64,000 nt of DNA from Pyrobaculum ferrireducens (GTDB lineage: Archaea > Thermoproteota > Thermoprotei > Thermoproteales > Thermoproteaceae). The notes under the pieces were generated by a model. It ran no database searches. It had not been told where the DNA came from and saw only the letters and a program-made list of their open reading frames with translations. The stretch is from positions 1,526,391-1,590,390 of the forward strand of contig NC_016645.1 in assembly GCF_000234805.1 (NCBI RefSeq), in the 5' to 3' direction. The first letter of the stretch is position 1. Each line of letters begins with the position of its first letter. Shown here piece after piece: positions 7,494-61,711 of the stretch. A program made the position numbers and the translations under genes.

Positions 7494-7892
7494 CTATTGG
7501 CTATGGACGCGGCTGGGTCCTAGCTTTGATAGACATTCACTTATTATATCTGCACATTTTACACATAGATCCCCCTTGGGATCTGTCAAACGCCTTTCTA
7601 AACAGTAAGCACATTTGACAGCTTCGGCAGAGGGGTTGCCCACGGCCTTCGCCAAGAGCGCGGGGAGGGCGTGGACAGCCGGCGTGGGGGCATATGGGTG
7701 GCTACCCAGAACCCCCATGAGCAGGGCTCTCACCGCGACGTAGGCGTTGTAGCAAGCCCATGAGTCGTCGCCCCGCTCGAGGCCTCTAATGGCTTCTGTC
7801 ATGTGTCTATAGTGGCGCTCTATCCACTTGGGGTGAATCACGGGGGGAAAGTCTATATAGCTATTTTTGATTTTCTCCATGAGGCTCGGCAT
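7494..7892 (-). CDS. HEPN-like helical protein with a zinc-finger-like tail
   Basis: The first ~90 residues of this 132-residue protein are helical with the spacing of HEPN-type proteins (RHMTEAIRGLERGDDSWACYNAYVAVRALL, shown in segments). The C-terminal part has two C-x2-C pairs (CAYC and CVKC) 14 residues apart that could bind zinc. HEPN proteins are often nucleotide- or RNA-related, but the typical R-x4-6-H nuclease motif is not evident. The gene is divergent from, and its 5' end overlaps, the next gene on the plus strand. Function is not assignable. Confidence 0.6.
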   Translation of the reverse strand: MPSLMEKIKNSYIDFPPVIHPKWIERHYRHMTEAIRGLERGDDSWACYNAYVAVRALLMGVLGSHPYAPTPAVHALPALLAKAVGNPSAEAVKCAYCLERRLTDPKGDLCVKCADIISECLSKLGPSRVHSQ

Positions 7893-18455: not shown

Positions 18456-18824
18456 TTACCGAACCCCAGCGGTGTACAGCATCAACGCCCTTTCTTTCAA
18501 CTGGCCGGTGATTGGGTCGACCTCCAGCTCCAGCACCTCTAGAGTCGTCATCCCGACGAGGACCTTATCAATAACGTCTGATATCAAGACGGGGACCACC
18601 TCGCCGCGGCCGGCGATCTCCACGTAGGCCCTCCCCCGCTCCATTGTAATCACTCCGGCCCCTGTCTCCACTCTCGACACGGCGTGGGGCTTTATCCCCA
18701 GCTCCTCCGCCAGCCACCTCGGCAACACAGTCAAAGTAGCCCCGGTATCCACCAGCGCCTTCACAGATCTACGCGCCGTACCTTCTAAATTTCCGACAAT
18801 AACCTCAACCCAGACATGACCCAC
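18456..18824 (-). CDS. Retropepsin-like aspartic protease domain protein
   Basis: The protein carries ALVDTGATLTVLPRWLAEEL, a retropepsin-type DTG active-site motif followed by the expected hydrophobic helix. Later AYVEIAGRG and VLVGMTTLEVLELEVDPITG segments complete the single-domain fold. These proteins work as dimers. The GTG at 18824 is preferred because TTTTAAA lies ~22 nt upstream and the copy at 30.8 kb starts at the same place; an ATG at 18875 is the alternative (139 residues). A 122-bp segment covering promoter and first 32 codons is duplicated at 30738-30859. The sequence CGGTAAGTA appears at both ends of this locus. Confidence 0.75.
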   Translation of the reverse strand: MGHVWVEVIVGNLEGTARRSVKALVDTGATLTVLPRWLAEELGIKPHAVSRVETGAGVITMERGRAYVEIAGRGEVVPVLISDVIDKVLVGMTTLEVLELEVDPITGQLKERALMLYTAGVR

Positions 18825-18851
18825 GTACCACTTAACGGGTTTAAAAGTAAA
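18730..18851. repeat. 122-bp dispersed repeat, copy A
   Basis: This segment holds the promoter and first codons of the retropepsin-like gene. It matches 30738-30859 in the same orientation with 7 mismatches and no gaps. Confidence 0.9.
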
Positions 18852-19011
18852 TTCTCCCCCATGTCCCAGCCGCATACTTACCGTAGTTCTTCGCCAGCTT
18901 GCCAATCTTTACTTGAGATTTTCTGAGCACATGGTTTTTGAAAGCAGTTAGTGCCACCGTCTTGGGTTTTCTTTTGGCCCATCAAATTTATATGGGATTT
19001 GGGGTAATAAC

Positions 19012-19248
19012 ATTGTCAACGTCGATGTTGTAATCAGCTCGCTTATAGCCCAGGCGCCGCTTGTCGCCGCCGCAGTTATTGTGCTGTACTACTCACTCGA
19101 CAGAAAGATAGAAGAGGTAAAAAACAAACTCAGTAAGGAAATTGACTCCGTGAGGGGGGAGCTGGCTAGGGGCCTTCCGGAGTTTAGAGAGGCTTTCTAC
19201 AGCTACCAAAACACCCTCATCGACTTCCTCGCGGCAAGGATGTTGTGA
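19012..19248 (+). CDS. Short membrane-anchored coiled-coil protein (no standard start codon)
   Basis: The frame reads a hydrophobic anchor with AQAPLVAAAVIVLYY, then a charged coiled coil (DRKIEEVKNKLSKEIDSV) and a short tail ending at TGA 19246. It is a short paralogue of the protein at 51762-52490, which shares AQAPLV and the same layout. A TATA-like TTTATATG lies upstream, but the codon at the expected start is ATT or GTC rather than ATG/GTG/TTG. The gene may use a non-canonical start or be recently inactivated. About 78 codons. Confidence 0.5.
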   Translation: MVNVDVVISSLIAQAPLVAAAVIVLYYSLDRKIEEVKNKLSKEIDSVRGELARGLPEFREAFYSYQNTLIDFLAARML

Positions 19249-19481
19249 CTAACATGAGAGGCCACGAAACGCCCTTTCGGCGCCTCTCCTCTTACGACGC
19301 GCCGACTAGCATACCTCAGAAGATCTGTATAGAACAAATATACATCGAGGGGGGGACGTGGATCTGTTGACGGCGGTTAACTTGGCAGTGCGCTGTCTCA
19401 GCTAGAATTTGGAGTTTTGTCCAGCACAAAGGGGTTGAGTGAAAGCCAGCTTGGGAAAAGAGGAAGGGAAAAAGGTAGGTT

Positions 19482-29081: not shown

Positions 29082-29693
29082 CTACGCCAAGTTGTCGTAT
29101 TTTCCATACACCAGCTGGTTTATACCTACGGCGTAAATATCGCCAGTAGCCGCGTCGTACTCAAGCTCAACCTGCGGCAAGAACTCCGTGGCGTGGCCAG
29201 TGACCTGCTTGCCGCCTCTTGCCAAGTCAAACTGCGTGAAGTGGATCTGACATACGGCGCAGTTGACGTCCGGAAGATACACCAAAGGCCCACCCATGTG
29301 GGTGCACTGGTTTACAAAAGCCACGACATCACCCCGCGGCCCAACACCTCCCACCGCCGGCTCGCCCAACTTGACCAAAAGTACATTATACCCCATATAC
29401 TGCTTGAAGACAGGCCTCTTATCTACTAAATCCCTTATATTCGCAAGCTTAACCCGTTCATACCTTTTAGCTACGGGTGCCGGTTGCGGCTGGGTAACAG
29501 TCACTGTCTGAGGAGGCTGGGTAACAGTCTGCGTAACTGTTTGAGTCAACGTCTCGGTCACTACCCTTTCCCGCGGCGCCAGCAGGTAGCCCACGACACC
29601 GCCAACGACAAGAGCCCCAGCGGCAGCCACAACAGCACGCCTTGTTGAGTCAGGTCTAGCCTTTTTTTCACCCCTTTCCTTTTCCTCAGACAT
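29082..29693 (-). CDS. aioB: Rieske subunit with Tat signal (AioB-like)
   Basis: A twin-arginine signal (DSTRRAVVAAAGALVVGG) is followed by a Thr/Gln/Val-rich linker with repeated TVTQ, then a Rieske domain with CTHMGG and CQIHFTQFD (C-x-H, C-x2-H). The linker would tether the domain outside the membrane. AioB-type subunits take electrons from AioA. The ATG at 29693 is preferred over 29699 because it lies ~27 nt after TATATAAA. Confidence 0.88.
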   Translation of the reverse strand: MSEEKERGEKKARPDSTRRAVVAAAGALVVGGVVGYLLAPRERVVTETLTQTVTQTVTQPPQTVTVTQPQPAPVAKRYERVKLANIRDLVDKRPVFKQYMGYNVLLVKLGEPAVGGVGPRGDVVAFVNQCTHMGGPLVYLPDVNCAVCQIHFTQFDLARGGKQVTGHATEFLPQVELEYDAATGDIYAVGINQLVYGKYDNLA

Positions 29694-29699
29694 GACCAT

Positions 29700-30391
29700 A
29701 CAAAAATACGGATTTATATACTTTCGTTAAAAATTATTCTCTAAATTCTCTATATATATAAATATATTTACTATTGAAGATAGACATAAATAATTTTAAT
29801 ATAGAGATTTATGAAGGAAATAATTAATTATTACTTCTATATAAAACAAAAACTCAATACTTTTTAATTCTTGGCAGTAAATGTTCCGTATCGATATCAC
29901 AACCTATGGATTTGTGCGCGTAGTCTTAGCCACTTCTTGTCCAAGATTGTGAAGATGCCGAATAGATTAACAAAGCGTGAGGATTCGATTCCCACCGCGG
30001 CGACGTGCCGATACTGCACACACAGAGGGGGCGCCGGGAGAAGCTTCCTCCTCTCCCCATAGCTCCGACCTCCCTTGCTACTACCTCTACATTCTTCCTG
30101 GCTTAACAACGGAGATTCTTCTTAATTCAGTAAATGTAGGCGAAAGTTGTGAGGCATCTCCAGATATGAGTCGCATAATGTAGGGTTATACATTAGAGGG
30201 GATGCCGAGGCCGCTTCTAGATAGAGATAAGAACTACCACGGCGAGACCAAGACCAGAGCAGTCGCTAATTCATAAACGGGGGTATGTTTCTACACACAT
30301 GGGCTTGCGGTTGCCCCCGAAGGGCCATTAGGCGCCTCTGGGCCCCGCACCAGGAACATCTAGAGTAAAAAGGGGAGATATCCTTCGCCCG
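29700..30391. other. 692-bp intergenic region
   Basis: The first ~180 bp are extremely AT-rich and contain the AioB promoter. The rest is mixed sequence with short frames in every phase and no coding pattern. Near 29985 there is a T-arm-like stretch that fails tRNA pairing rules. Nothing functional is recognised beyond the promoter. Confidence 0.5.
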
Positions 30392-30832
30392 TTACAATAT
30401 TGATATGTTAATCATCAACCCCCCGTCTTCGTGTTCTAGATTGTGGCAGTGGAAGGGGAATAGCTGACCTCTTTCTGCTACGTCGAACTTGACGACGGCT
30501 TTCACTGTTTCACCTGGCCAGATCAACACTGTGTCTTTAAGTCCCAGATCAGTGGGCAATCTGCCCCTGTAGTCGACGGCTAGCTCCGCCACTTGTCTGG
30601 GGCTGTTGCGCCTCTCCACTACCCACATGGGGAATCCGTGGAGGTGCATGGGGTGCGGCATAGAGGCGGCGTCGTTAACAATCTCCCAAAGCTCCACGGA
30701 TCCAGCCTCCACCTTGACGTGTTCCTTCAGCGGCTCGGTCAAAGTAGCCCCGGTATCCACCAGCGCCTTTACAGATCTACGCGCCGTACCTTCCAAATTT
30801 CCAGTAATAACCTCAACCCAGATATGACCCAC
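30392..30832 (-). CDS. Chimeric gene: retropepsin promoter and N-terminus fused to a multicopper oxidase C-terminal domain
   Basis: The first 32 codons, through VDTGATLT, are those of the retropepsin gene at 18.8 kb. From codon 33 the frame continues, without a stop, into the last cupredoxin domain of a multicopper oxidase. The copper-ligand segments are HPMHLHGFPMW and HCHNLEHEDGGLM. The copied segment also brings the TATA box. The fusion lacks the other oxidase domains and most of the protease, so neither activity is expected. It is a recombination product with an open frame; whether it is expressed is unknown. Confidence 0.75.
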   Translation of the reverse strand: MGHIWVEVITGNLEGTARRSVKALVDTGATLTEPLKEHVKVEAGSVELWEIVNDAASMPHPMHLHGFPMWVVERRNSPRQVAELAVDYRGRLPTDLGLKDTVLIWPGETVKAVVKFDVAERGQLFPFHCHNLEHEDGGLMINISIL

Positions 30833-30859
30833 GTACTACTTAACGGGTTTAAAAGTAAA
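30738..30859. repeat. 122-bp dispersed repeat, copy B
   Basis: Matches 18730-18851 at 115 of 122 positions in the same orientation. One difference turns a TGG into TAG upstream of the shared GTG start, which would matter only if translation began further upstream. Confidence 0.9.
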
Positions 30860-31122
30860 CTCACCAATGCCCTAGCTACGTATTTGCCTTTATTCTTCAC
30901 AGCTCCACCCGTCCGCGATTTCAAATACCTAGCTAAGACAGCGCACCGCCGAGTTCAGCACCTCCAGCAGATACGTCCTTCCCCAATGTATATGCCGTGC
31001 CTGATCCTCTGATGTCTGTGAGCTCAGTGAAACAAGCATAATTGTATGAGGTTCAGTACATTCACACCTGGAGATCGGGAAGCCGCATGTCGCAATTTTC
31101 CGCAACACAACGGCTCAATCTT

Positions 31123-31467
31123 CTAGTTCAAAGGACCGCGGGCCGGGATGAATGCTAGACCAAATACGCCGCTTATCAGCCACATCACTACAGCCAGCAA
31201 CAAAGCTGTACGCCAGCTAAGATTTTGGATTTTTCTCAGGGCATACATCCACACAATGATGGCAGGTATCCCACTTATGAATGGTAATCTAAATACTGCA
31301 TTGAAAAACCAGTAGACTGGGGCCCCCATAAGCGCTGTTGCGGCGACTCCGGCGAAGCTCTCATTACTCTGCCTCCCGGCAATAAACTTAAGCGCAACAC
31401 ACACAGCAATCGAGGACTCAATCCACGCTCCCACAAAACTTGCCACAATTCCCACGTAGCTCATCAT
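31123..31467 (-). CDS. Small polytopic membrane protein of unknown function
   Basis: 114 residues with about four hydrophobic segments (SYVGIVASFVGAWIESSI, GVAATALMGAPVYWFF, FISGIPAIIVWMYAL, TALLLAVVMWLISGVFGL). No family is recognised. An AT-rich TTTATATA stretch around 31489 lies upstream of the ATG. It stands alone between the chimeric gene and lipA. Confidence 0.6.
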   Translation of the reverse strand: MMSYVGIVASFVGAWIESSIAVCVALKFIAGRQSNESFAGVAATALMGAPVYWFFNAVFRLPFISGIPAIIVWMYALRKIQNLSWRTALLLAVVMWLISGVFGLAFIPARGPLN

Positions 31468-31769
31468 CCATATTTAGATAAAGAATATTTATATATAATG
31501 CCGCCTATGCCCCACTGCATGACCGCAAGCGATAGTGAGCCTCTTGGTCCATGTGGGCTTTGGGGGCTCCGGCGGAGGGTCGGGGAGGTACCAGCTTAGG
31601 AAACTCCACCCATATATAGCCGGCGTGCACCGTAGTGAAAAAGGTTTTTCACAGCGCGCTGACCGGTTCATCAAGGCCCCGTGGGGGTCTAAGTTGCGGC
31701 GAAGTGTTGACATGCTGTAAGCCAACTTCGGCCCTGCCTAATTTAAATTATGCATTTCGTGTTTTACAA
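31468..31769. other. 302-bp region before lipA
   Basis: Frames on both strands are open here but lack coding character. The region contains an 18-bp palindrome and the lipA promoter at its right end. Confidence 0.45.
31635..31652. repeat. 18-bp inverted repeat
   Basis: GTGAAAAAGGTTTTTCAC is a perfect inverted repeat with 8-bp arms and a 2-bp centre. It lies ~118 bp before the lipA start. It could be an operator or a DNA cruciform; no function is shown. Confidence 0.4.
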
Positions 31770-32642
31770 GTGTTGCCTAGGTGGATAGGCACGGTGGCCG
31801 GCGATTATGGCAGTATTGCGAAAGTGAGGTATGTGCTGAGCCGCCACGGCGTCTACACAGTCTGCGAGGGTGCGCGGTGCCCCAACATATTTAGCTGCTG
31901 GGGGGAGGGCACCGCCACGTTTATGATTCTGGGGGAGGTCTGCACCAGGGCTTGCCGTTTCTGCTCTGTGAGGACGGGCAACCCCCGCGGCTTGGTCGAC
32001 TGGGGGGAGGTTGAGCGGCTGGCTAGAGCGGTGGAGGAGCTGGGTCTCCGCTATGTCGTGGTGACATCTGTGGCGCGGGACGACCTGCCGGACGGCGGCG
32101 CCTCGGTCTTCGCCGCGGCGGTGAGGAGGCTGAGGAAAACCGGCGCCCTGGTTGAGGTGCTTGTCCCCGACTTCCGCGGCGACGAGGCGGCAGTGGCGGA
32201 GGTGGTGGAGTCGGCTCCCGACGTCTTCGCCCACAATGTGGAGACTGTGAGGAGGCTTACGCCCCATGTGAGGGATTCCCGGGCTAGCTACGAGAGGTCT
32301 CTGGCGGTTTTGAAAATGGCTAAGGATCTGGGGGCTCCATTGACTAAGTCCGGCATTATGCTGGGCCTGGGGGAGGGCTTTGAGGAGGTTGTGGAGGCTC
32401 TGGACGATTTGAGGAGGGCCGACGTGGATATTGTCACTATTGGGCAGTACCTAAGGCCCAGCGGCTCGCCTAGGCATTTAAAGCCGGCGCGGTACGCGGC
32501 GCCGGAGGAGTTCGAGAGGCTGGCGGAGGTGGCGCGGGTGATGGGCTTCAAGGCCGTGGCGTCTGGCCCCCTCGTGAGGAGCTCCTACAAGGCCTACGGG
32601 CTATATAAAGAGGCTTTGAAAAATATAGTGTACATAAGTTAA
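31770..32642 (+). CDS. lipA: Lipoyl synthase (radical SAM)
   Basis: LipA inserts two sulfur atoms into octanoyl groups bound to lipoyl domains. The auxiliary cluster motif C-x4-C-x5-C (CEGARCPNIFSC) and the radical-SAM motif C-x3-C-x2-C (CTRACRFC) are both intact. VTSVARDDLPDGG is also typical. The frame is open back to 31635. A GTG at 31770 (or TTG at 31773) fits the ~290-residue family length and lies ~26 nt after the TTTAAATT box. The adjacent operon encodes a lipoylated E2 and LipB, giving a full lipoylation route. Confidence 0.95.
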   Translation: MLPRWIGTVAGDYGSIAKVRYVLSRHGVYTVCEGARCPNIFSCWGEGTATFMILGEVCTRACRFCSVRTGNPRGLVDWGEVERLARAVEELGLRYVVVTSVARDDLPDGGASVFAAAVRRLRKTGALVEVLVPDFRGDEAAVAEVVESAPDVFAHNVETVRRLTPHVRDSRASYERSLAVLKMAKDLGAPLTKSGIMLGLGEGFEEVVEALDDLRRADVDIVTIGQYLRPSGSPRHLKPARYAAPEEFERLAEVARVMGFKAVASGPLVRSSYKAYGLYKEALKNIVYIS

Positions 32643-32644
32643 GG

Positions 32645-32652
32645 TTTATATA
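32645..32652 (+). promoter_or_regulatory. TATA box of the 2-oxoacid dehydrogenase operon
   Basis: TTTATATA lies 28 nt before the E1alpha ATG and directly after the lipA stop, so the five-gene operon has its own promoter. Confidence 0.6.
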
Positions 32653-32672
32653 CTAAGTTCGGATTTTTCACC

Positions 32673-33791
32673 ATGTTAGAAATAAGTTTAGAAATTCCTA
32701 GACAATATACAGCTGAGGCGAGGGAGCCCCAGGTCTTTAGAGTTCTAAATGACGACGGGGCCCCAGACGAGGCCTACGACGTGGGTTACAGACCCACCGA
32801 GTCGGAGCTCGTCAACGCCCATAGGTGGATGGTGCTGGGGAGAGTCCTCGACAGACAGGCCTTGCTCTACCACAGGATGGGGAAGGTCAAGTCTACATAC
32901 GGACCCCACGAGGGCCACGAGGCGGCTGACGCCGGGACGGCGCTGGCGCTGAGGCCGGAGGACTGGGTCGCGCCTTACTACAGAAACCTCACCCTCCTAA
33001 TCGCCAGGGGCGTGCCTCTCGAGACCATCTGGGCTAAGTTCTTCGCTAAGGCGGGAGATTCGGACAAGGGGAGGAACCTAACAGTTGAGTGGGGAGGCTT
33101 CAAGAAGTGGCGTTTCTTATCGATAGGTGCCCCCATAGGCCATCAGTACATTTATGCCGTGGGTTTTGCCTACGCCCTTAAGTACATGAGGAGGGAGGAG
33201 GTGGTGGCGGCGTACATCGGCGACGGGGGCACTTCGACGAACGGCTTCCACGCCGGACTTAACTTCGCCGGGGTGTACAAGACCCCCGTGGCGTTTTTCA
33301 TATACAATAACCAATACGCCATATCCACCCCAGCCGCCAGGCAGACCGCTGTGCGGAGGCTGGCGGTTAAGGCGGTGGCGTACGGTCTTGAGGGCGTCTC
33401 GGCGGACGGCATGGATCTATTGGCGGTGGTGAAAACAGCAAAGTGGGCTGTGGAGAAGGCGAGGCGGGGGGAGCCGGTTCTGGTGGAGTATTTGACGTAC
33501 CGCTTCGGGCCCCACACAACAGCCGACGACCCCCTCACGCGGTATAGAGACCCAAAGGAGGCCGAGGAGTGGCGCCGCCGCGACCCGGTCAGCCTGCTGG
33601 AGAAATTCCTCCTCTGGTCTGGCATATACAAAGAGGGGGAGGTCAAAGCCGTGTGGGAGGAGGCGGAGCGGGCTGTGAAAGAGGCCGCCAAGGCCGCCGA
33701 GGCCCAGCCAGACGTGCCTCTTGAGGAGGCTGTGAAAGACGTCTACAGCTTCGTGCCTAGATCTCTCCGGGAGTGGCTGGAGGAGCTATGA
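32673..33791 (+). CDS. 2-oxoacid dehydrogenase E1 component, alpha subunit
   Basis: The 372-residue protein is a thiamine-diphosphate-dependent E1alpha. [20 protein letters not shown] is the GDG-x-NN-type cofactor motif. [20 protein letters not shown] and the phosphorylation-loop-like [12 protein letters not shown] are also family features. With E1beta it decarboxylates a 2-oxoacid (pyruvate or branched-chain) and transfers the acyl group to E2. Substrate cannot be read from sequence. Its stop overlaps the E1beta start. Confidence 0.93.
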
Positions 33792-34753
33792 TGGCCAACA
33801 TGGCTAGGGCTATAAACATGGCGCTTCACGAGGAGATGGCGAGAGACGAGCGGGTGGTGGTCCTGGGCGAAGACGTGGGGAGGAGGGGCGGGGTGTTTCT
33901 CGTCACAGAGGGGCTGTACGAGAGGTTCGGCCCCGAGAGGGTTATAGACACGCCCCTCAACGAGGGGGGCATCCTCGGCTTCGCGCTGGGGATGGCCATG
34001 GCGGGGCTCAAGCCGGTGGCGGAGATACAGTTCGTGGACTTCATATGGATGGGCGCCGACGAGCTTCTAAACCACATATCTAAGGTGAGGTACAGGTCGG
34101 GCGGGGAGTACAAGGCGCCGGTTGTGGTGAGGACCCCCGTTGGCTCCGGCGTCAAGTCAGGCCTCTACCACAGCCAGAGCCCCGAGGCCATCTTCGTCCA
34201 CACCCCCGGCCTCGTGGTGGTCATGCCTTCGACGCCATACAACGCCAAGGGTCTGCTGAAGGCGGCTATAAGAGGCGAAGACCCCGTGGTGTTTCTAGAA
34301 CCCAAGATCCTGTACAGAGCCCCGCGGGAGGAGGTTCCCGAGGATGACTACGTGGTGGAGATTGGGAAGGCACGTGTGGCTAGGGAGGGGGACGACGTGA
34401 CTATCGTGACGTACGGCGCCATGGTCCACAGAGCGCTGGAGGCCGCCGAGAGGGCAAAGGCCTCTGTGGAGGTGGTGGACCTCCAGACTCTGAACCCCAT
34501 GGATCTCGACACGGTGCTGAAAAGCGTCTCCAAGACCGGCCGGCTAGTGGTAGTCCACGACTCGCCTAAGACCGGGGGCCTCGGAGCCGAAGTGGCCGCC
34601 GTGGTGGCAGAAAAGGCGATAGATAAGCTGGTAGCCCCCGTGGCGAGGGTAGCCGGCCCCGATCTGCCCCAGAGCCCCGTGGCCCACGACGCGGTATACG
34701 CCCCAACTGTGGAGAGGATACTCAAGGCAATAGACAGGGTATTGGCGTACTGA
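33788..34753 (+). CDS. 2-oxoacid dehydrogenase E1 component, beta subunit
   Basis: The protein contains [36 protein letters not shown] and VRTPVGSG, the transketolase-like pyrimidine-binding segments of E1beta. The C-terminal transketolase domain shows [15 protein letters not shown]. About 321 residues from the ATG at 33788, which overlaps the E1alpha stop (ATGA). It pairs with E1alpha as a heterotetramer. Its stop shares a base with the E2 start. Confidence 0.94.
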
Positions 34754-35943
34754 TGGAGTTCAAATTCCCAGACCTGGGCGAAGGCCTTGTAGAAGGCGAG
34801 GTGGTTAAGTGGCACGTCAAGGAGGGGGACTACGTCAAGGAGGGCGACCCCCTAGTCGACGTCATGACTGAGAAGGCGACGGTGACCCTCCCGGCGCCCA
34901 CCAGCGGCAAGGTCGTAAAGATACTGGCGAGGGAGGGACAAGTGGTTAAGGTTGGCCAAACCCTCTGCATAATCGAGCCGGCGGCGGAGGCGGCGCCTCC
35001 CGAGAAGCCCCAGGCGGCCCAGCCGGCCCCCCGCGAGGTGGCGGCGATGCCGGCCGCCCGCAGGCTGGCTAGGGAGCTGGGCATCGACCTCACAAAGGTG
35101 AGAGGCACCGGGCCAGGCGGCGTGATCACCGTGGAGGACGTGAGGAGATACGCCGAGGAGCTAAAGGGCAGGGAGGCGGAGACGCCTAAACCCGCAGAGG
35201 CTCCGAAGGCTGTGGAGGTCTCCAAGCCCCCGGAGGCCCCGAGGGCGGCCGAGGCGGAGGTTATACCGGTTAGAGGGGTGAGGAGGGCCGTCGCCGAGAA
35301 GATGACGAAGGCCAAGAGGCTGATCCCCCACGCATACCACCTCGAGGAGGTGGACTTTACAGAGTTGCTGAGACTGCGCGAGAGGCTGAAGGCCGAGGCG
35401 GAGAGGAGGGGCGTGCGGCTAACAGTACTGCCTTTCATAGTCAAGGCGGTGGCGCAGGCGCTTAGGGAGTTCCCAATGCTGAACTCAGAGTACGACGAGG
35501 AGAAGAATGTGATTGTGGTTAAGAAGGAGGTGAATATCGGCGTTGGTGTGGACACGGAGCACGGCCTTGTGGTGGTCGTCGTGAGAGATGCCGATAAGAA
35601 GAGCGTCTTGGAGCTGGCTAGGGAGATAGGGGCTCTGGCGGACAAGGCGAGGGCCGGCAAGCTGGATATACAAGACGTGAGGGGCTCTACCTTCACCATC
35701 AGCAACATCGGCGCCGTCGGGGGGCTGGGCGGCCTCTCCATACTGAACTACCCCGAGGCCGCCATCATGGCAGTCGGCCAGGCCAGGAAGAAGCCGTGGG
35801 TCGTGGGGGATAGGATAGAGATAAGAGACATTGCCCTGGTGGCTGTCAGCTTCGACCACAGAGTGGTGGACGGGGCCTACGTGGCTAGGTTCACCAGCAG
35901 AGTGAAGGAGCTCCTCGAGAGGCCGGAGGCTCTACTGCTATGA
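34753..35943 (+). CDS. Dihydrolipoyl acyltransferase (E2)
   Basis: Three domains are visible in 396 residues. The lipoyl domain has the lysine in DVMTEKATVTLPAP. A peripheral-subunit-binding domain covers PAARRLARELGIDLTKV and RGTGPGGVITVEDV. The catalytic domain ends with the SFDHRVVDGAYVARF active-site motif (His and Asp). Alanine/proline/glutamate-rich linkers separate them. E2 forms the core of the complex and accepts the acyl group. It is fused into the operon by overlapping stop/start codons on both sides. Confidence 0.95.
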   Translation: MEFKFPDLGEGLVEGEVVKWHVKEGDYVKEGDPLVDVMTEKATVTLPAPTSGKVVKILAREGQVVKVGQTLCIIEPAAEAAPPEKPQAAQPAPREVAAMPAARRLARELGIDLTKVRGTGPGGVITVEDVRRYAEELKGREAETPKPAEAPKAVEVSKPPEAPRAAEAEVIPVRGVRRAVAEKMTKAKRLIPHAYHLEEVDFTELLRLRERLKAEAERRGVRLTVLPFIVKAVAQALREFPMLNSEYDEEKNVIVVKKEVNIGVGVDTEHGLVVVVVRDADKKSVLELAREIGALADKARAGKLDIQDVRGSTFTISNIGAVGGLGGLSILNYPEAAIMAVGQARKKPWVVGDRIEIRDIALVAVSFDHRVVDGAYVARFTSRVKELLERPEALLL

Positions 35944-37298
35944 GGCTTGTGGTGGTCGGCGGCGGGCCCGCCGGCTACGTCGCGGCCATTAGGGCGAGCC
36001 AGCTGGGCATCAAGGTCACGTTGATAGAGGCGGAGCACCTAGGCGGGGAGTGTACAAACTACGCATGCATCCCCTCCAAGGCGTTGCTACACGCCGCGGA
36101 GGTTTACAGAAAGGCGGCTTCAGCCCCGTGGCTGGCCGGCTCTCTGTCGTTTAGGTGGGGGGAAGCCGTTCGCTGGAAGGACGGGGTGGTGGAGAGGCTT
36201 AGGCGCGGCATAGAGTTCCTCTTGAAGTCGGCCGGGGTTGAGGTTGTACACGGCGTCGCCAAGCCGGGGCCGGGGAAGTCGGTTGAAGTGAACGGCCGGA
36301 GGTTTGAGTACGACTACCTGCTTCTAGCCACTGGTAGCGAGCCCGTAGATCTGAAGGAGCTACCCCGCGGGGGGAGGGTCCTTGGGACTAGGGAGGTCTT
36401 CGGTCTAGAAAACGCACCGGCGTCTGTGGCGATTATCGGCGGGGGCGCCGCCGGCGTGGAGGCGGCGTCTCTCTTTTCAATGTTAGGCTCTGAGGTCCAC
36501 CTAGTCGAGGTGATGGATCGGCTACTGCCGGGGCTCGACGCAGATGTGTCTAGGCAGGTTGAGAGGGCGCTCGCTGGAAGAGGCGTTAAGGTGTACACCT
36601 CCTCAAGGGTTGTGGGCGCCGGCGGCGCAGACGGCGCGTTGGAGCTACGCCTCTCCACGCCCGGCGGGGAGAAGAGGGTGGAGGTGGAGATAGCCGTCGT
36701 GGCGGTGGGGAGGCGCCCGAGGCTCGGGCCCTTCGCCGCGCTGGGGCTGGAGCTGGACAGCCGCGGCGCCGTGAAGACAGACAGCTCGATGAGGACGAGC
36801 ATCCCGTGGGTATACGCCGCGGGGGACGTGACTGGGCCGCCGTACTACGCCCACAAGGCCTACGCCCAGGCTAAGGCCGCGGTGGAGAACATGGCGGGCC
36901 TCAAGTCGGCCTACGAGCCCCGTGCCGTGCCGGCGGTGATCTTCAGCGACCCCGAGGTGGTGTCTGTGGGCCTCACCGAGGAGGAGGCCGCCAAGAGGGG
37001 TTACAGACCCAAGGCGGCGAGGGTGCCCCTTTCGGCGCTTGGGCGCGCGGTGGCCACCGACTCGTCTGAGGGATTCGCCAAGCTTGTGTACGACGGGGAG
37101 AGCCGCGTCGTGCTGGGCGTCCACATGGTGGGGCGCGGCGTCTCTGAACTGGCCGGCGAAGCCGCCGCCCTAGTCGAGTTCTACGCCACAGTCGACGACT
37201 TGGCGCTGGTGGTGCACCCACACCCAACTCTCTCTGAGCTCTTCGTCGAGCTGGCGGAGGCCGCCCTCGGGAGGCCCACACACGTGGCGAGGTTATGA
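35940..37298 (+). CDS. lpdA: Dihydrolipoamide dehydrogenase (E3)
   Basis: The 452-residue flavoprotein has an FAD-binding VVVGGGPAGYVAAIRASQLG start, the redox disulfide in GGECTNYACIPSKAL (C-x4-C), a NAD-binding VAIIGGGAAGVEAASLF, and the C-terminal HPHPTLSE histidine-glutamate pair. It reoxidises dihydrolipoyl groups of E2 with NAD+. It starts 4 nt inside the end of the E2 gene and ends overlapping lipB. Confidence 0.95.
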   Translation: MRLVVVGGGPAGYVAAIRASQLGIKVTLIEAEHLGGECTNYACIPSKALLHAAEVYRKAASAPWLAGSLSFRWGEAVRWKDGVVERLRRGIEFLLKSAGVEVVHGVAKPGPGKSVEVNGRRFEYDYLLLATGSEPVDLKELPRGGRVLGTREVFGLENAPASVAIIGGGAAGVEAASLFSMLGSEVHLVEVMDRLLPGLDADVSRQVERALAGRGVKVYTSSRVVGAGGADGALELRLSTPGGEKRVEVEIAVVAVGRRPRLGPFAALGLELDSRGAVKTDSSMRTSIPWVYAAGDVTGPPYYAHKAYAQAKAAVENMAGLKSAYEPRAVPAVIFSDPEVVSVGLTEEEAAKRGYRPKAARVPLSALGRAVATDSSEGFAKLVYDGESRVVLGVHMVGRGVSELAGEAAALVEFYATVDDLALVVHPHPTLSELFVELAEAALGRPTHVARL

Positions 37299-37981
37299 AG
37301 GTGGTGTGGCTTGGGAGGACCGCGTATCACGAGGCATGGCGGCTGATGAAGTCGCTACATAGGGCAGTCTCGGCTGGCCAGGCGGAGGAGGTGGCCCTAG
37401 TCACAGAGCACGAGCCTGTGGTGACCGTTGGGAAGCACGGCAGGCTTAACAACGTACTGCGCTGGGACGTGCCCGTGTACGTGGTGGAGAGGGGCGGCGA
37501 CGCCACCTACCACGGGCCGGGCCAGGCCGTGATCTACCCCATAATACGCCTGAGGTGGCCTCTGAGGCGCTACATCGACGCCCTAGAAGACGCGGTTATA
37601 GAGACGTTGAGAAAATACGGCGTAGAGGCTGGGAAAAATCCAAGCCACAGGGGGGTCTGGTTAGGCGGGAGGAAGATAGCCAGCGTGGGGATAGCCGTGG
37701 AGAACAACGTCGCGTACCACGGCGTTGCCGTCAACGTTTCTCTAGACGTGGGAGAATTCGCCAGGATAAACCCCTGCGGCCTGCCCCCATCCGCCATGAT
37801 CTCCATGAAGGACCTGGGGATACACGCAGACGTCAGAGAGGTCGGCGTCGAGACGGCGGTGAACCTCGCCGAGATCCTTGGACTACACACCGAGATCGCC
37901 CCAAGGCCGCCGGAAGCGCCGCCGGTTGCAGAAGAGCTAAAGCCTGCGGAGCCACCTCGGCAGATCACCGCACGCCCCTAA
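37295..37981 (+). CDS. lipB: Octanoyl/lipoyl transferase LipB with a proline-rich tail
   Basis: LipB moves an octanoyl group to the E2 lysine before LipA adds sulfur. The motif RGGDATYHGPGQAVIYPIIRL (shown by key residues RGG, HGPGQ) and the catalytic-lysine region LGGRKIASVGIAVEN are present. The last ~30 residues form a proline/alanine/glutamate-rich extension not usual in the family. The start overlaps the E3 stop. With lipA next to the operon, synthesis and use of lipoate are encoded in one place. Confidence 0.92.
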   Translation: MKVVWLGRTAYHEAWRLMKSLHRAVSAGQAEEVALVTEHEPVVTVGKHGRLNNVLRWDVPVYVVERGGDATYHGPGQAVIYPIIRLRWPLRRYIDALEDAVIETLRKYGVEAGKNPSHRGVWLGGRKIASVGIAVENNVAYHGVAVNVSLDVGEFARINPCGLPPSAMISMKDLGIHADVREVGVETAVNLAEILGLHTEIAPRPPEAPPVAEELKPAEPPRQITARP

Positions 37982-54074: not shown

Positions 54075-54881
54075 CTAGATTGCGTGCCTCTCGGCGAGCT
54101 CCACCCTCTTAATCCTCGCCTCCATTGAGGCCCTCAACGCGCCGGAGGCGCAGTCGAGAATCTCCGCCCTTGTCTCGGGGTCTTTGGCGTATTTCATCCA
54201 CACCCTCTCCGCTATGGACCAGTGGAACAGCTCGTCGTCTTCAATCTCGCGGAACGTCTCCATGAAGAGCTGGGAGGCCTCTCTATACGGCGGCTCCCAG
54301 AGCCTGGGGTTCTTGGGGAAGTAGTCGTGGACTCCTCTGTGGTGGTAGACGCTGGTCAGCTCCACCACCTGAAGCGTGGAGGTGAGCTTCACCTGGAAGT
54401 AGGGCCACTCCCTCCTCCGGGCGGCGCACTGCAACGGGAAGTCGAAGAGATCCACCCACTCCTTTATGGGCTGGAACCCCTCCATAGAGCCTCCGTACAT
54501 CTTCAACACCTTGGAGCGGATGTAGTAGTGGCGGCACTCGTCGGAAATCTGCTGCGCGAGGACGTTCATAAACTCCGTGTCTATCAAGTCGCGGTACTCG
54601 GTGACGGACCGGGTAATAACTGTGTTGGCGGCCCACTCGTTCCACATCCCCTGCCTAAGCCACGCAATGACGTTTTTCACATCTGCGTTCTGTATCCAGT
54701 AGGCCCCAATTTCGTACTGTAGCGACAGGAGGGGGTCAACGTAGGCCTTGAACCAGTCTACGAACTCCACAGGCGACTTGAACTGGGCTAGGAACTGCCA
54801 GTCGTTTTTCAGCCTCTCCAAGTCTTCTAGAATTTTCTTTAGCTCTACATACTTATTTCTTAATTTTTCAGCCACCGACAT
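54075..54881 (-). CDS. Ferritin-like diiron protein (putative oxygenase), copy 1
   Basis: The 268-residue helical protein has all ligands of a four-helix diiron site in order: E82 (GMWNEWAAN), E115-x2-H118 (SDECRH), E174 (QVVELTSVYHH) and E217-x2-H220 (EDDELFH). This E, ExxH, E, ExxH arrangement is that of diiron oxygenases and oxidases. It is about half the size of toluene/methane monooxygenase alpha subunits and has no signal peptide. Two paralogues follow at 60.9 and 62.3 kb. It is divergent from a Rieske-fusion gene. An oxygen-activating hydroxylase is inferred; the substrate is unknown. Confidence 0.75.
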   Translation of the reverse strand: MSVAEKLRNKYVELKKILEDLERLKNDWQFLAQFKSPVEFVDWFKAYVDPLLSLQYEIGAYWIQNADVKNVIAWLRQGMWNEWAANTVITRSVTEYRDLIDTEFMNVLAQQISDECRHYYIRSKVLKMYGGSMEGFQPIKEWVDLFDFPLQCAARRREWPYFQVKLTSTLQVVELTSVYHHRGVHDYFPKNPRLWEPPYREASQLFMETFREIEDDELFHWSIAERVWMKYAKDPETRAEILDCASGALRASMEARIKRVELAERHAI

Positions 54882-60916: not shown

Positions 60917-61711
60917 ATGTCGGTTGGTGAAAAATTGTGGGCCGAGGTCCCCAGGTTGAGGAAGATATGGGAAGATTTGAAAAACGTGGGAGACGACGTG
61001 TTGAGGCAGTTCTCAACCCCCCAGGAGTTTATTGACTGGTTCAAGGCCTACGCCGACCCGGTACTGCAGTTCCACTACGTAATTGGGCACGAGTGGGGCG
61101 CCACCACAGACGTGGATGGCGTGAGGTCTTGGCTTAGGCAGGGGGTGTGGAATGAGTGGGCCGCCGCGGCCGACGTGGCTAAGATGGTGACTGAGTACCG
61201 CGACCTCATAGATACGGAGTTCATGACTATGCTGGCTCAGCAGATATCTGACGAGGGGCGGCACCTGTACCTCAGGTCACGCATCCTCAGAGCGTTCGGG
61301 GGGTCTATGGAGGGGTTCCAGCCGATAAAGGAGTGGGTGGAGCTCTTTGAGCTTCCCTTTGTCTGCGCGCCTAAGAACATGAAGTTCTTCCAAGTGAGGG
61401 CCACCTCTACTCTCCAGGTGGTGGAGCTGACTAGCGTCTACCACCACAGAGGAGTCCACGACGCCCTGCCTAAGAACAGGACGTTGATGGAGGGGCCTTA
61501 CAGAAGCGCCGCTGTTATGCTCCAGGAGAGCTTCCGCGAGATTGAGGACGACGAGCTGTTCCACTGGTCCATAGCGGAGAGGGTGTGGATGAAATACGCC
61601 AAAGACCCCGAGGCTATGAGGAATATACTGGACTGCGCCGCGGAGGCCCTCCGCGTCTCCACAGAGGCCAGGGTGAGGAGAGTGGAACTGGCGGAGAAGA
61701 AGGCTATCTAG
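60917..61711 (+). CDS. Ferritin-like diiron protein (putative oxygenase), copy 2
   Basis: 264 residues, very similar throughout to copy 1 at 54.1 kb. All diiron ligands are kept: E80, E113-x2-H116 (SDEGRH), E170 and E213-x2-H216 (EDDELFH). The helices after each ligand share long identical stretches with copy 1 (FGGSMEGFQPIKEWVELF versus YGGSMEGFQPIKEWVDLF). It lies 46 bp after the LigA-like gene, which ties hydroxylation to ring cleavage. It overlaps the convergent Nudix gene by 8 bp. Confidence 0.75.
   Translation: MSVGEKLWAEVPRLRKIWEDLKNVGDDVLRQFSTPQEFIDWFKAYADPVLQFHYVIGHEWGATTDVDGVRSWLRQGVWNEWAAAADVAKMVTEYRDLIDTEFMTMLAQQISDEGRHLYLRSRILRAFGGSMEGFQPIKEWVELFELPFVCAPKNMKFFQVRATSTLQVVELTSVYHHRGVHDALPKNRTLMEGPYRSAAVMLQESFREIEDDELFHWSIAERVWMKYAKDPEAMRNILDCAAEALRVSTEARVRRVELAEKKAI

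Follow-up and report, generated by a model that had tools for sequence, protein, structure and literature searches.

The reading frame described here borders on two known protein kinds. One is the multicopper oxidase McoP of P. aerophilum (PDB 3aw5, 8p4g), which carries a Tat signal peptide (PMC11111587). The other is the archaeal single-domain retropepsin-like proteases (Asp_protease_2 / gag-asp_proteas), represented in our window (the whole stretch of DNA analyzed, 64,000 nucleotides, G000:C1:1526391-1590390) by an intact gene at 18.8 kb, relatives of which occur across most of the family's genomes. In its general make-up, the frame resembles fusion pseudogenes that arise from illegitimate recombination or deletion, with truncated partners that are in frame by chance and found in a single genome; it differs from them in that the frame is still open and most catalytic residues are present.

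With a probability of roughly two in three, we regard this open reading frame as a relic of illegitimate recombination within a variable 54-kb region, by which a second retropepsin copy became joined to an oxidase gene. We found no paper on a retropepsin-oxidase fusion in the literature.

A chimeric reading frame

The frame combines the 5′ end of a retropepsin-like gene (about 32 codons) with the end of a McoP-type multicopper oxidase gene (Table 1). An earlier note, written from the letters of the sequence, had proposed this in-frame fusion, and our analysis confirmed that the chimera is real and that its frame is open over 146 codons.

Table 1. Positions in the window of the chimera, its parts and the related retropepsin locus
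Feature	Position	Strand
Chimeric ORF, GTG start, 146 aa	30392..30832	-
Retropepsin-derived first 32 codons, ending just past the DTGAT active-site motif	30737..30832	-
Last 114 codons of McoP-type multicopper oxidase, incomplete third cupredoxin domain	30392..30736	-
Junction: similarity to the G009 retropepsin through ACCG, oxidase similarity from (GAG)CCGCTG onward	30734..30740	-
Retropepsin promoter/upstream region, TATA-like TTTTAAA at 30848-30854	30833..30898	-
Upstream flank "U", collinear with the G009 retropepsin locus (to 30958); inverted at 19338-19415	30899..30993	-
Intact retropepsin-like gene, GTG start, 122 aa, Asp_protease_2, ortholog of the G009 gene	18456..18824	-
508-bp segment between two breakpoints relative to G009; inverted U at 19338-19415 and partial gene copy at 19015-19249	18908..19415	

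An in-frame TAG lies two codons ahead of the GTG. In the sister genome G009, an in-frame stop precedes the ortholog of the 18.8-kb gene and no start codon lies ahead of its GTG. GTG is therefore the start there, which supports the same choice for the chimera. The TATA-like element is located 16-22 nt 5′ of the GTG on the minus strand. Since the distance from TATA box to start codon is usually longer than this in archaeal leaderless genes, the promoter that the earlier note had ascribed to the chimera is plausible but unproven. No known RNA family was detected across 29600-31700. Just 3′ of the chimera, at 30260-30344, lies a short non-coding stretch without an Rfam match that has 80-85% matches at several places in its own genome and in G009.

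The retropepsin head and the variable region around it

Only the first quarter of the retropepsin sequence is present. The chimera shares the first 32 codons and the upstream region with the single-domain proteases and keeps the DTG(A/S) motif as DTGAT at residues 26-30, but it lacks the remaining ~90 residues of the fold. The complete dimerizing lobe of ~100 residues is thus absent, and Pfam reports no retropepsin domain (Asp_protease_2) in the chimera.

The sole direct repeat of at least 40 bp in the window connects the head with the 18.8-kb gene (139 nt, 90% identity, spacing 12,008 bp). Between 30738-30859 and 18730-18851, 115 of 122 positions are identical without gaps, as had been counted before: 89 of 95 from the GTG on and 26 of 27 upstream. 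BLAST widens the match to 163 bp (30738-30898, 87%, E 6e-54), far above chance. The retropepsin-derived segment is, however, longer than the 122 bp given before, and its copying from 18.8 kb is not supported. Against G009, the retropepsin-derived stretch extends over 30736-30958 (~222-223 bp), running from codon 32 through the promoter region into flank U, collinear with the G009 gene and its flank. Within the 95 coding bases, the chimera agrees with G009 at 93 and with the 18.8-kb gene at 89, while the latter agrees with G009 at 91. Copying from 18.8 kb as the simple source was rejected, since G009 is nearer in coding sequence and has more flank in common. Gene conversion with the 18.8-kb copy was likewise rejected, as the number of coding sites common to both window copies against G009 is zero.

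Because the chimera is nearer to G009 than to the 18.8-kb gene in its coding bases and matches the G009 flank, it most likely carries the stump of a second retropepsin locus, here termed R′, rather than 122 bp copied recently. R′ would date back to about the time at which the G009 lineage split off. Even a short repeat of nearly identical sequence may thus have a source other than its nearest look-alike.

An ectopic duplication, which enlarges the view of the earlier note, would have placed ~220-260 bp of retropepsin 5′ end and flank from the retropepsin locus inside an oxidase gene or what was left of one. This would account for the pair of direct repeats at a spacing of 12,008 bp, and a single copying event would be enough because coding and flanking part are both present in an ancestral locus of the G009 type. 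We nevertheless hold this explanation to be unlikely, as the coding sequence of the chimera is nearer to the G009 gene than to the supposed source and its upstream part is ~29-32% diverged, which speaks against a recent copy.

The flank itself is probably no dispersed mobile repeat: exact matches to the core of U are found only beside retropepsin loci, which led us to reject this candidate and also speaks for R′. Matches with two mismatches occur elsewhere somewhat more often than with a reversed-pattern control. Collinearity between the 18.8-kb gene and G009 ends at 18907, the ancestral upstream region of the gene being replaced from ~83 bp before the start. The adjoining segment 18908-19415, just upstream of this intact gene, is inverted or inserted relative to G009.

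Collinearity of the two genomes resumes only at the window-equivalent of 72.6 kb (L187 ~8600), so that ~53.7 kb, counted from 18908, are replaced by ~1.4 kb in G009. This variable block of ~54 kb contains tetrathionate-reductase-like, arsenite-oxidase-like, lipoyl synthase and 2-oxoacid dehydrogenase genes. The chimera sits in a region with several such scars, and other gene fragments lie near the left edge of the block: 19015-19249, for instance, is an incomplete copy (92-97%), shortened internally, of a small gene that occurs at G000:C1:147981-148363 and also in G009:C5. Genes for lipoyl synthase, E1 alpha/beta, E2, E3 and a lipoate-ligase-type protein stand in a row at 31635-37981, here in an archaeon.

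A block of ~11.8 kb, consisting of the tetrathionate-reductase-like and arsenite-oxidase-like genes plus the oxidase tail, could also have entered the retropepsin locus and left the 5′ end of the gene at either border, in the manner of a long target duplication. In G009, the sequence passes straight from the equivalent of 18907 (7701) into U (7706-7746), whereas in the window U lies past the second copy, and the genes of the block are located elsewhere in G001, G002 and G005. This sequence of events appears rather improbable to us: the inverted U at 19338-19415 requires a second event, the right flank of G009 resumes at the 72.6-kb equivalent and not after 31 kb, and a target duplication of 160 bp would be unusual.

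What the oxidase tail retains and lacks

Several comparisons identify the tail. Residues 27-142 of the chimera match Pfam Cu-oxidase_2 with 72.5 bits (cut-off 20.4), and residues 32-145 align with residues 336-447 of the P. aerophilum multicopper oxidase 3aw5 (E 3e-62), which is also the best structural match of the predicted model. The same residues share 83% identity with the C-terminal portion of the intact 477-aa oxidase of G001, itself a match to 3aw5, and about as much with 3aw5, and the motifs HPMHLHG and HCHNLEH are common to the chimera and McoP. The HCH copper motif had been described as intact, and it is indeed present in the tail together with both His motifs of domain 3, whose histidines and cysteine are all kept.

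A three-domain multicopper oxidase of the McoP/CueO type has four copper motifs, two HxH motifs in domain 1 and two in domain 3, of which the chimera contains only those of domain 3. Domains 1 and 2 of the three-domain enzyme are missing, and with them half of the trinuclear-site ligands. The tail had been taken for the last cupredoxin domain; it does derive from it, but the domain is not whole, as the retropepsin head has taken the place of the two or three strands (~20-30 residues) with which it should begin. Ten residues past the Cys, at the position of the axial T1 ligand in this class of oxidases, the chimera has Leu139, whereas Met occupies this position in 30 of 30 intact relatives, all of them distant oxidases from a GTDB contig scan that returned no loci of the own genus. 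A Tat export signal, as in McoP, is absent, the N-terminus being retropepsin sequence. The chimera can be neither a multicopper oxidase nor a retropepsin.

AlphaFold2 assigned a pLDDT above 85-90 to most of the tail and of 32-70 to the head. Compared with the intact isolated domain 3 of a relative, for which the predicted values are at least 90 through the first 40 residues, this is suggestive of a poorly folded head, the head having entered the prediction without aligned relatives.

The remainder of the oxidase is gone. In a tBLASTn search of the window with the whole G001 oxidase, only oxidase residues 365-476 were found and no other oxidase piece scored above chance; in the genome as a whole, no oxidase match was found besides the tail of the chimera, and no Cu-oxidase_3 domain was detected. 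The genome therefore has no intact oxidase of the McoP kind.

Origin and age of the fusion

For the favored origin as a recombination relic, we propose the following course of events. A further retropepsin copy, R′, together with an upstream flank of its own, would once have stood at the 30.7-kb place. Illegitimate recombination would have linked codon 32 of R′ with codon ~365 in a McoP-type oxidase gene of 477 codons, destroying the oxidase. The simplest form would be a deletion between tandem minus-strand genes, with the oxidase downstream of R′ and the join perhaps made at or near a short run of bases common to both (ACCG/CCG). That the frame was kept may be due to both partners being coding and to the event being young: about one-third of all joins are in frame, and selection is not required for one. 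The retropepsin promoter may still drive transcription of the fragment.

The fusion is restricted to a single genome. Among 45 genomes of the order only the own genome carries it, and it was not seen among the listed GTDB loci, plasmid matches or viral contigs. The fusion is thus no old and widespread family, which the earlier note had named as one finding that would refute its proposal. The scar of recombination that the earlier note had offered as one of two readings is supported. The open frame and the preservation of every copper ligand except one speak against a relic, since selection could have maintained them. It also speaks against the proposed course of events that an intact tandem of R′ and oxidase was found in no relative and that the intact oxidase gene of G001 has no retropepsin beside it.

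The age of the fusion was approached through the divergence of both halves. Between the oxidase tail and G001, dS is 1.57 and dN 0.117, and the amino acid changes divide into six on the chimera branch, six on the G001 branch and four unclear. Because of the low ratio (0.075), nearly all of the divergence of the tail from G001 would have arisen under constraint. In the retropepsin-derived part, changes unique to the chimera branch were counted at 2 of 95 positions in the coding head and at 15 of 84 upstream (Fisher p 0.0005), a comparison of small stretches of 95 and 84 bp. Two explanations fit this contrast: a young fusion of an R′ that had been a working gene until not long ago, or selection on the chimera itself. 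We prefer the first interpretation since it needs no new function; it depends on R′ having been functional first. In a neutral simulation, the frame stayed intact in 0.41-0.75 of cases at 2% divergence and in 0.0003 at 18% with indels, and the simulated survival at 2% fits a recent fusion.

The other reading of the earlier note, a new gene being formed, received no positive support: the fusion is known from 1 of 45 genomes, both of its halves are incomplete, and neither export signal nor axial copper ligand remains. A functional gene would presumably be transcribed leaderless and encode a cytoplasmic single cupredoxin domain with a retropepsin-derived cap. The open frame, the conserved promoter-like upstream sequence, the intact copper-binding His and Cys residues and the low dN/dS of the tail agree with this, but a protein that has no Tat signal, lacks half of the trinuclear-site ligands and its axial Met, has a head predicted to fold poorly and is found in one genome only makes a working gene improbable. 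Still more so is the specific version of a young chimera in which the retropepsin promoter would express, and the N-terminal strand would cap, a free-standing cytoplasmic cupredoxin domain. Such a domain would have a copper site with axial Leu and would be under selection to bind copper or transfer electrons beside the arsenite-oxidase-like and tetrathionate-reductase-like genes. If the chimera were functional, it would be a rare gene built from two unrelated parts in a hyperthermophile. It may have some residual function, though with a low probability.

A misjoin of two contigs near 30738, the other refuting finding named in the earlier note, would explain a junction in one genome only, but is very improbable in an assembly that consists of a single 2.468-Mb contig, contains the remainder of neither R′ nor the oxidase elsewhere, and holds two retropepsin copies that differ by ~10% and are hardly to be confused.

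If the chimera is the recombination relic that we favor, it records the loss of a multicopper oxidase from one Pyrobaculum-like lineage and the build-up of gene fragments in a variable region of respiratory genes. Farther along the window, at 54075-54785 and 61007-61711, there are two inverted stretches, 71-81% similar and 6-7 kb apart, each located inside an ORF of ~265 aa without a Pfam match.
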